From Firmicutes bacterium HGW-Firmicutes-1 (GTDB taxonomy: Bacteria; Bacillota; Clostridia; Lachnospirales; Vallitaleaceae): a stretch of 64,000 bases of DNA. Position numbers and translations under genes: made by a program. Under the pieces are notes generated by a model, which saw nothing but the letters and a program-made list of their open reading frames with translations, had not been told where the DNA came from and ran no database searches. Within the stretch, counting starts at the first letter, position 1. Every line of letters starts with the position of its first letter. The stretch spans positions 62,001 through 126,000 of the forward strand of contig PHAG01000003.1 in NCBI GenBank assembly GCA_002841625.1, read 5' to 3'. This document shows positions 19,844 to 54,502 of the stretch, piece by piece.

Positions 19844-19913
19844 GAACGCTTAATAGTAATAGCCTAAATAAAGGCTTTCAATATACGCTTTCCCTCCGAA
19901 AGTATGTGATGTT

Positions 19914-20085
19914 ATACATGGCAGGTTTCCTGACTTATGGCTCATAACCAAGCTCTAACCTTCTCAGTCTCCCAATGGTATTTTTAGATCTTGTGGCCAT
20001 ATACAGTAGCGGGGGCTGTAACGAATTTACATCGTTTTCCCTTTTAACTTCAATAATGATAATGAAGCACCAATGTATGCTCATA
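19914..20085 (-). promoter_or_regulatory. Cobalamin (AdoCbl) riboswitch
   Basis: The minus strand carries, in order, GGTGCTTCAT, GGGAAAACGATGTAAATTCG, the core CCCCCGCTACTGT (20003-20015), GGCCACAAG, and the B12-box-like GTCAGGAAACCTGCC (19920-19934). These are the conserved blocks of the cobalamin aptamer. It should shut down btuFCD when adenosylcobalamin is plentiful. Confidence 0.93.
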
Positions 20086-20101
20086 TTAAATTTTGTTTCT
20101 A

Positions 20102-28240: not shown

Positions 28241-29494
28241 TTAAGCAAGTACTTCGCAAAAATCATCTTCATCCTCATCCTCATCGAGTTCGAAATTCTG
28301 TTGATCATCATTGCGTCCATCATCATTATGCTTATAAACAAACTTCAGTAATATTGGTGTCATTAATGTTGTAACGATCACCACAATAACCAATGGTCCG
28401 AATAGTACAGCATTCATAATCCCTATAGCAGCACCTTTATCTGCAACAATCAGAGCTACCTCACCTCTTGAAATCATCCCAATTCCAATTCTCAAAGATT
28501 CTTTCTTAGAATAGCCACAAGCTCTTGCACCCAATCCACATCCAACTACTTTTGTTAATATGGCTACTACCAATAAGACAAGTGTAAACAATATGATAGG
28601 ACCAGTTAAACCTGTAAAGTGCGTTTTAATTCCAATGCTTGCAAAAAAGATTGGAGAAAGTAGCATGAAGGAAAGCACTTCAAACTTTTCTGAAATATAG
28701 TGAGATTGTGTTACACTCGATATAATAATTCCTGCTAAATAAGCTCCTGTAATGTCTGCAATTCCAAAATATTTTTCGGCAATATATGATAAAATTAAAC
28801 AGAATGCTAATCCATACACTGGTATTCTTCTTTTCTTTCCATGTCTTTTGCTAAGATGGGCAAATACGTAGTAGAATATCAACCCGCAAATACCAGCAAA
28901 TACGAAGAATAAAAGAATTCTTATCATGATACTAGTAATACTTACAGAAGAGTCAGCAAAACTTGAAATAATCGTTAATATAATGATTCCTAAAATATCA
29001 TCGATAACAGCTGCTCCCAAAATGGCAGTGCCTGAAGGAGATTTTAGCTTCCCCATTTCACGAAGTGTCTCAACAGTGATACTAACGGATGTTGCTGTTA
29101 AAACAACACCAATAAAAATATTTTGAAGTATTTGTTGTTGTGTCATTTCTGCAAAAGCTGTTCCTGAATAAATAGAAGTTACTAAAAATCCACCCGCTAA
29201 TGGAAGAGCAACTCCAATAATTGCGATGACAAGTGAAGCCTTTCCACATTTCTTCATTTCCTTAATGTCAGTTTCTAGCCCTGCCGTAAACATCAAAGCA
29301 ATTACACCAAGCTCTGCCATTTTATCTATAAAGTCAGTTTCATGTACAATGTTTAATACTCCAGGTCCTAAAATCAATCCTGCTATTAATGCCCCCACAA
29401 CTTGTGGTATCTTTATTTGTTTTGTAAGTAAGCCCAAAATCTTGGTGCTTAATAATATAATTGCTAAGTCAAGAAAAAAATCAACTTCTAACAT
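28241..29494 (-). CDS. CPA2-family cation/proton antiporter
   Basis: Kef/NapA-type monovalent cation:H+ exchanger, 417 aa with about 12-13 helices. Characteristic segments are IPQVVGALIAGLILGPG, GLETDIKEM, the ion-site helix SGTAILGAAVIDDILGIIIL (paired Asp) and IGMISRGEVALIVADKGA. The C-terminus ends in an acidic cytoplasmic tail (LDEDEDEDDF) and has no TrkA_N/RCK domain. ATG 29494 has AGGAGG 7 nt upstream. The consensus promoter lies about 350 bp upstream, leaving a very long leader (see findings). Na+ or K+ cannot be told apart from sequence. Confidence 0.88.
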   Translation of the reverse strand: MLEVDFFLDLAIILLSTKILGLLTKQIKIPQVVGALIAGLILGPGVLNIVHETDFIDKMAELGVIALMFTAGLETDIKEMKKCGKASLVIAIIGVALPLAGGFLVTSIYSGTAFAEMTQQQILQNIFIGVVLTATSVSITVETLREMGKLKSPSGTAILGAAVIDDILGIIILTIISSFADSSVSITSIMIRILLFFVFAGICGLIFYYVFAHLSKRHGKKRRIPVYGLAFCLILSYIAEKYFGIADITGAYLAGIIISSVTQSHYISEKFEVLSFMLLSPIFFASIGIKTHFTGLTGPIILFTLVLLVVAILTKVVGCGLGARACGYSKKESLRIGIGMISRGEVALIVADKGAAIGIMNAVLFGPLVIVVIVTTLMTPILLKFVYKHNDDGRNDDQQNFELDEDEDEDDFCEVLA

Positions 29495-29843
29495 TATTTT
29501 TCCTCCTAAAGTTTAGTCTGATCTATTGGAAGTCTCTAGTCACAAGAAACTAATTTTCACTGCTTTTTCACACAAAAAAAGACCAAAAACCTTTTTCTAA
29601 GAATACCTTACAGAAATAAATTGTCATACAATTGATTTACTACAAATATATCCCCGCATTCTTAGATACCAAGTCAACTTTGTCTTTTCGCATTTAACTA
29701 TCTATTTGATGTTAGAAATTAACTATAAAATGCTCTTAAAGGGCATATTTACAAAATAGATTTCTAACTATATTTTAAATTTTTTTGCAACTTGTCTTAC
29801 TGATTCCGTCATTTATGTTAATAGATTTTAATCTTTTATTTAC
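29495..29843 (-). promoter_or_regulatory. Long structured 5' leader of the antiporter gene
   Basis: About 350 nt between the predicted start site and the antiporter ATG with no convincing ORF. It holds a 9-bp perfect stem (29596-29604 with 29658-29666, TCTAAGAAT / ATTCTTAGA) enclosing an AATTGT..ACAATT hairpin, and a TTAGAAAT..ATTTCTAA pair further upstream. A T-run (TTTTTTTG) follows the main stem. Candidate cis-regulatory RNA; it matches no riboswitch consensus I can recall. Confidence 0.45.
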
Positions 29844-29850
29844 TTTCATT

Positions 29851-29879
29851 ATTATATTCCTGTATTTTTTTTTTGTCAA
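29851..29879 (-). promoter_or_regulatory. Perfect sigma-A consensus promoter for the antiporter
   Basis: Minus strand TTGACA, 17-bp spacer containing an A-tract, TATAAT: a full match to the vegetative consensus. Confidence 0.8.
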
Positions 29880-29898
29880 TAAGATAACAATCTAATGT

Positions 29899-29914
29899 TG
29901 TATACAAGTATACA
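29899..29914. promoter_or_regulatory. Operator-like palindrome upstream of the antiporter promoter
   Basis: TGTATAC-AA-GTATACA, arms of 7 bp, 20 bp upstream of the -35 hexamer. It resembles operators of GntR-type regulators. An activator or repressor site is possible. Confidence 0.5.
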
Positions 29915-29998
29915 TTATGTTTGTGCAGTTTTTACATTGATATCTTGCAAATAATTCATTTATAGTGCATTTTGCAGAATTACATGAAAATAAAAAAA

Positions 29999-30024
29999 GT
30001 TGCATAAAAAAATATATATGCAAC
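29999..30024 (-). terminator. Terminator after the cyclase-family gene
   Basis: Stem GTTGCATA / TATGCAAC followed on minus by TTTTTTTATTT; about 70 bp past the stop at 30096. Confidence 0.8.
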
Positions 30025-30095
30025 CTGTTAATATTTATGATAAATCAACATGTAAGTTTGTGATAAATGTTAGACATTAAAAAAGCTTATTTATT

Positions 30096-36767: not shown

Positions 36768-37128
36768 TTGCAATGAGCAAGCCGATAAGCCGAGTTCTGT
36801 CGTGGACGATCATCTCTCTTCGCTTACTGTCGCCAGCAAGCTCTAGCAACCTACCCAGAAGCACGGCGGGCAGCCGTATAGCTTCTTGTACGGTCTTGCT
36901 CCGGATGGGGTTTACATATGCCCTCTTTGTTACCAAAGAGGCGGTGAGCTCTTACCTCGCCTTTCCACCCTTACCAAATCAATAGATTTGGCGGTTTATC
37001 TCTGTTGCACTGTCCTTGAAGTTGCCTCCACCAGACGTTATCTGGCATCCTGCCCTATGGAGCTCGGACTTTCCTCACCTAGGACCTTTAGGCATTCTAG
37101 GTGCGATCGTCTAGCTTACTCACTGCTT
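36768..37128 (-). ncRNA. rnpB: RNase P RNA
   Basis: Ribozyme that removes tRNA 5' leaders. The minus strand carries the two universal blocks: GAGGAAAGTCCGAGCTCC near the 5' end and ACAGAACTCGGCTTAT near the 3' end. The terminal stem P1 pairs CAGTGAGTAAGC (5') with GCTTGCTCATTG (3'). GGGTAGGTTGC and AGGGTGGAAAGGCGAGGTAAGAGCTC-type regions fit the ancestral A type seen in Clostridia. End positions are inferred from P1 pairing. Reading frames over this stretch are spurious. Confidence 0.95.
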
Positions 37129-54273: not shown

Positions 54274-54315
54274 AAAGCATTCTTGTGTCCCTAACAAGGG
54301 ACGAAAGAATGCTTT
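54274..54315 (-). terminator. T-box regulatory terminator
   Basis: Stem AAAGCATTCTT / AAGAATGCTTT with an inner GTCCCTTGTTAGGGAC hairpin, followed by a T-run on minus. It is the terminator that tRNA binding would disrupt. Confidence 0.9.
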
Positions 54316-54502
54316 CTTCCGCGGTTCCACCCTCTTTGATACAAACAACTTGTATCCACTCTATGCTACCTATGTTTAAGGTATTAAACTGCTCCAAAGT
54401 GCCTTCATTAATTCCTTCGACTTAGCTTCCACCATCCTAAGTTCGCTTAAACGAAATGAATATAATTACTCTTCTTTATCAACGCAAATATCATTTAATT
54501 TT
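54274..54502 (-). promoter_or_regulatory. T-box riboswitch, tRNA-Gly responsive
   Basis: Minus strand shows stem I with specifier GGC (54401-54403, in GAAGGCACTTTGGAGC, closely like the Bacillus glyQS leader), GGATGGTGGAAGCTAAG, and the T-box core GAGGGTGGAACCGCGG (core at 54319-54330) just before the terminator. Uncharged tRNA-Gly should allow read-through into glyS. Confidence 0.95.

Follow-up and report, generated by a model that had tools for sequence, protein, structure and literature searches.

Na+-I riboswitches occur upstream of kefB genes for which napA is the better name, and they can act via an intrinsic terminator (PMC9337991); Li+ riboswitches (nhaA-I and nhaA-II) form the leaders of cation antiporter genes (PMC9646797). 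Here we analyzed an antiporter leader within 64,000 nucleotides of DNA from Firmicutes bacterium HGW-Firmicutes-1 (the window), together with the homologous leader carried by a sister species of the same genus, HGW-Firmicutes-7 (G001). A first-pass annotation of the window had suggested a new ion or nucleotide riboswitch at this place, which was reasonable because Na+-I riboswitches do precede kefB/napA genes (PMC9337991). Our preferred reading, to which we assign a probability of about 0.5, is a genus-specific attenuator-type leader combined with a promoter-proximal operator on the antiporter unit.

Both leaders were scanned against Rfam 15 with cmscan, at the gathering thresholds and at E <= 5. 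Even at E <= 5, neither leader gave a match to Na+-I (DUF1646), nhaA-I/II, ydaO or any other relevant family, in agreement with the annotation, which had recognized no known consensus. Other parts of the window contain ordinary Rfam matches on the minus strand, namely a cobalamin riboswitch (19903-20090), RNase P RNA (36770-37122) and a T-box leader (54294-54491).

Antiporter gene and start region

The gene behind the leader was identified as a cation antiporter by Pfam, as the annotation had read it.

28241-29494, minus strand: NapA-like CPA2 Na+/H+ antiporter, 417 aa (PF00999)
29502-29507, minus strand: Shine-Dalgarno sequence AGGAGG of the antiporter, mostly paired in the predicted fold

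The best match of the protein among solved structures is the Na+/H+ antiporter 4bwz/5bz2 (E 1.6e-57), which we take to be NapA of Thermus thermophilus. The NCBIfam models KefB, KefC and YbaL scored far under their cut-offs. At the ribosome site, the predicted partners of AGGAGG are early codons or an upstream CUUCC, and the nearby ACTTCCrATAGAT is conserved in the alignment of window and sister.

Promoter and candidate operator

The antiporter promoter TTGACA-N17-TATAAT (minus strand, 29879-29851) agrees with the consensus at 12 of 12 positions, so the perfect promoter reported earlier, about 350 nt before the ATG, holds.

29874-29879, minus strand: -35 hexamer TTGACA (alignment with sister and promoter scan)
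29851-29856, minus strand: -10 hexamer TATAAT (alignment with sister and promoter scan)
29899-29914, strand not given: palindrome TGTATACTTGTATACA, a candidate operator, centered about -62 from the predicted start
29994-30029, minus strand: terminator hairpin at the end of the upstream gene (cyclase family), conserved between window and sister

Judged by the promoter position, transcription is predicted to start at ~29844, which places the ATG (29494) behind a leader of ~350 nt. The 64-kb window has two such perfect promoters, while 0.075 are expected from shuffles. A promoter scan between the leader hairpin (domain II, below) and the ATG revealed no further strong promoter. The upstream neighbor of the unit is the putative cyclase gene, and the terminator-like hairpin of this gene sets it apart from the antiporter promoter.

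The palindrome that had been noticed upstream of the -35 has the form TGTATAC-NN-GTATACA. Its arms are kept in the sister while the center changes from TT to GT, and the distance of 19 nt between palindrome and -35 is identical in the two species though the spacer sequence differs. Specifically, TGTATACTTGTATACA has one exact match per ~4-Mb genome (G000 and G001), at the orthologous place in both. Since 7-bp inverted repeats of this type are not rare in the window (48, compared with 44.6 in shuffles), the case for the palindrome rests on its conservation, position and uniqueness. The one-mismatch sites examined for a regulon lie mainly inside genes or repeats. With conserved -35 and -10 hexamers and an operator-like palindrome at fixed spacing, the region has the features of a sigma-A promoter with a palindromic operator.

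Conservation and folding of the leader

Between the window and HGW-Firmicutes-7 the antiporter protein is 89% identical, while fourfold-degenerate sites are 45% identical and near saturation. Against this background the palindrome arms, the promoter including the larger part of its spacer, the UCUAAGAAU/UUCUUAGA stem, TTGACTTnnTATCTAAGAATG and GGTCTTTTTTTGTG are kept. Leader homologs were searched at the DNA level in 96 relatives, across 392 genomes of the order by covariance model, and by a genome-contig scan, which yielded HGW-Firmicutes-7 only. The alignment of leaders from related genomes that the annotation had proposed could thus be made with one same-genus homolog and comprises just two leaders in 392 genomes, both in one genus. 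A further candidate, L075, follows an unrelated transporter gene, resembles a terminator and was taken as a chance match.

29711-29768, minus strand: domain I hairpin, a perfect stem of 9 bp enclosing another hairpin (z -3.6)
29576-29689, minus strand: domain II terminator-like hairpin with the UCUAAGAAU/AUUCUUAGA stem (z -3.5 in the window, -6.9 in the sister)
29574-29580, minus strand: U7 run within the conserved GGTCTTTTTTTGTG (sister alignment)
29531-29551, minus strand: domain III small hairpin AGUUUCU/AGAGACU, with a one-sided pair change in the sister

The annotation had described one 9-bp perfect stem that encloses a second hairpin and is followed by a T-run; we found two 9-bp stems, one in domain I (arms 29711-29719/29760-29768) and one in domain II (arms 29596-29604/29658-29666), with the U7 run after the second. 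The place of domain I is occupied in the sister by a longer hairpin (z -4.7) of unrelated sequence, and the divergence of this domain is about that of neutral sites. Such diverged hairpins would fit compensatory evolution, in an ambiguous alignment of only two species.

Domain II is conserved in sequence. Below its main stem lie the helices GACUU and AAAAGAC/GUCUUUU, and 0 of 300 shuffles were as stable in either species. The covariance model built on the window domain II retrieves the sister (E 1.5e-7) with the outer helices intact, where changes are one-sided only and two-sided pair changes do not occur. The terminator-like hairpin is weaker in the window than in HGW-Firmicutes-7, whose domain II is predicted to fold into an extended terminator helix that a three-way junction closes. 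For the window, pair probability is ~1 in the upper stem and ~0.34 at the base; because the base is rich in A/U and G-U and is predicted in only roughly one third of the ensemble, the window hairpin may be a poor terminator. In the predicted folds, a stable hairpin followed by a U-run, as in an attenuator, lies between promoter and start codon. The whole leader folded in one piece is no better than shuffles (z -0.34).

No antiterminator common to window and sister was found. In HGW-Firmicutes-7, CAAUAAUC could base-pair with GAUUAUUG in the terminator arm; the window showed no counterpart of this pairing. Candidate short ORFs for a leader peptide were rejected, as they lack a Shine-Dalgarno sequence at their start and are not conserved.

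Orthologous antiporters in other genera

Five genomes, G013 and G020 of one genus and G010, G014 and G018 of another, have the antiporter ortholog in second position of an operon that begins with an mpsC-like gene (MpsC/DUF2294, PF10057). The leader of this operon consists of a promoter and then a 49-nt hairpin with symmetric/tandem purine internal loops (z -2.7 to -4.4), which was captured in model R1.

L004:818-868 and L005:861-911, strand not given: R1 hairpin
L006:3118-3166, minus strand: R1 hairpin
L007:1014-1062 and L008:1008-1056, strand not given: R1 hairpin

The 3' arm of this hairpin, GGACCA, doubles as the 5' arm of a terminator, and the two folds are predicted to be mutually exclusive and within a few kcal/mol of each other, as an antiterminator/terminator pair. 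Covariation inside the hairpin is slight, with a two-sided change at one pair. Among the 392 genomes of the order, model R1 recovered the hairpin from these five alone. An unfiltered R1 search of the window leader gave at best 5.7 bits, on the other strand, and the leader was not assigned to R1; the class-level matches L076 and L077 look like coding sequence.

In a third genus, the ortholog of G006 shows a promoter, ~20 nt, a terminator and the gene. The close orthologs in G012 and G016 lie behind a promoter similar in sequence, with no terminator-like T-run. The orthologous antiporters of one family thus keep the promoter-terminator-gene layout with completely different leader sequences. Because this layout recurs with unrelated leaders, the comparison favors attenuation as a possible common logic at these genes. 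Additionally, an M-box magnesium riboswitch was observed near a distant antiporter homolog (L019:1143-1310, minus strand).

A covarying RNA element outside the window

Following the mpsC gene led to a separate RNA element, R3, which lies outside the window. Its consensus is UYGG-AAG-AC...[stem]-AG-...-GU-AAG-CCRA, and the 3' arm of its hairpin is the 5' arm of a strong terminator.

L067:1419-1472, minus strand: R3 covarying hairpin/terminator
L070:1862-1916, plus strand: R3 covarying hairpin/terminator
Contig C8:161-215, strand not given: R3 in the window's own genome
L068, L071, L078, L081, L083-L088, L090-L098, L103-L107 and L111-L116: further R3 loci

Folded singly, the members adopt one common architecture. 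Among 26 matches, a set that includes a few weak ones and whose alignment was fitted to the model and so leans towards structure, 91.6% of cells pair (74.6% when shuffled) and 11 of 14 pairs carry two-sided changes; two-sided cells number 72, compared with 21 in shuffles and 4-10 when the alignment is slid. In several families of the order, R3 is found immediately 3' of mpsC-like genes. Loci from further families of the class (G471, G564) carry it in clusters of 3-4 copies, which adjoin genes for purE, purK, DUF4914, pyruvate phosphate dikinase (PPDK), a P-type cation ATPase and DUF1576. Three copies are present in the genome of the window (on contigs C2, C8 and C21). Within the window none was found (best match E 0.64), and the model search did not place the antiporter leader in R3. 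Rfam 15 holds no family for R3, and no paper naming the element was found among open-licence papers. R3 is possibly a new riboswitch or a target of the MpsC protein; as an undescribed, strongly covarying RNA close to MpsC genes and to the purine genes purE and purK, which use CO2, it may deserve its own study.

Proposed mechanism and alternatives

Since a structured leader with a terminator-like hairpin is kept in the sister species, RNA-level control of the antiporter is likely; transcription factor control via the palindrome is equally well supported. In the mechanism that we propose, the antiporter would form a transcription unit of its own under the sigma-A promoter, and a dedicated regulator would probably act at the putative operator centered near -62. 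The transcript would begin with a ~270-nt structured leader ending in the intrinsic-terminator-like hairpin and U7, where a share of transcripts would be expected to stop before the gene, and readthrough, presumably regulated, would set antiporter expression. Judged by gene function, the effector would likeliest be tied to Na+ or pH homeostasis.

Attenuation is supported because promoter, palindrome, stem and GGTCTTTTTTTGTG are kept despite 45% identity at fourfold sites, because domain II beats every one of 300 shuffles in both species, because no strong promoter lies downstream of the hairpin, and because orthologous antiporters show the promoter-terminator-gene order with different sequences. 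Against it stand the weak base of the window hairpin, the lack of a shared antiterminator, the total of two leaders, the outer helices with one-sided changes only, and the G012 and G016 orthologs without such a T-run.

Among the alternatives, control at the promoter only survives best, though we consider it unlikely: a transcription factor would act on the palindrome, and the leader would be a 5' UTR like many others, AT-rich and with hairpins of little importance. This would suit the unique palindrome conserved with fixed spacing, the weak terminator base in the window and a whole leader that folds no better than shuffles, but the conserved sequence of domain II and its stability beyond every shuffle in both species speak against it.

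We judge it improbable that an ion or a nucleotide (Na+, Li+, K+ or c-di-AMP) is sensed here by a new riboswitch, whose expression platform would be the domain II terminator. The part of this earlier suggestion that stands is the structured leader with a terminator-like hairpin, kept in the sister; together with the structured domain I and the fact that NapA/kefB-type antiporters are known targets of Na+-I riboswitches (PMC9337991), it speaks for such a switch. Positive evidence for a riboswitch did not emerge, however: no conserved aptamer-like core was found, domain I has diverged about as far as neutral sites have, unlike a riboswitch aptamer, Rfam has no relevant match at E <= 5 for either species, the leader occurs in one genus only, and the two species share no antiterminator. 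Less probable still, we suppose, would be a lineage-specific ion-responsive RNA switch of an undescribed class that controls the NapA-like antiporter by ending transcripts early, in combination with the operator at -62. A separate small RNA gene (promoter, ~270-nt RNA and terminator), past whose terminator the antiporter is expressed by leakage, would account for the own promoter and terminator-like end, but the antiporter has no second strong promoter, the sequence is not kept outside the genus and orthologs repeat the same order with unrelated leader sequences; we judge this reading, too, improbable.

Comparison with known systems

The proposed attenuator-type leader with a promoter-proximal operator shares features with several systems. 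Like the targets of the Na+-I riboswitch (DUF1646 motif), which precedes NapA/kefB-type antiporters with an intrinsic terminator possible (PMC9337991), the window gene is NapA-like, but its leader has no covariance-model match and no mutually exclusive aptamer and terminator were found. Li+ riboswitches (nhaA-I, nhaA-II) also sit in cation antiporter leaders (PMC9646797), whereas the window leader matches neither covariance model and its gene is CPA2/NapA-like (PF00999), not NhaA. With protein- or peptide-controlled attenuators the locus shares the order of promoter, long leader, terminator-like hairpin and gene, and differs in that neither an antiterminator nor a protein site nor a conserved leader peptide was identified. 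The mpsC-antiporter leader (L004-L008) has the same antiporter ortholog, a promoter and a terminator, and L006-L008 end in the same GGTCTTTTTTTGTG; it differs by a clear antiterminator overlapping the terminator, and a search of the window leader with its model R1 was negative. If termination at the window leader is regulated, it would represent a second RNA-level route to meter cation antiporters, besides the known Na+ and Li+ riboswitches.
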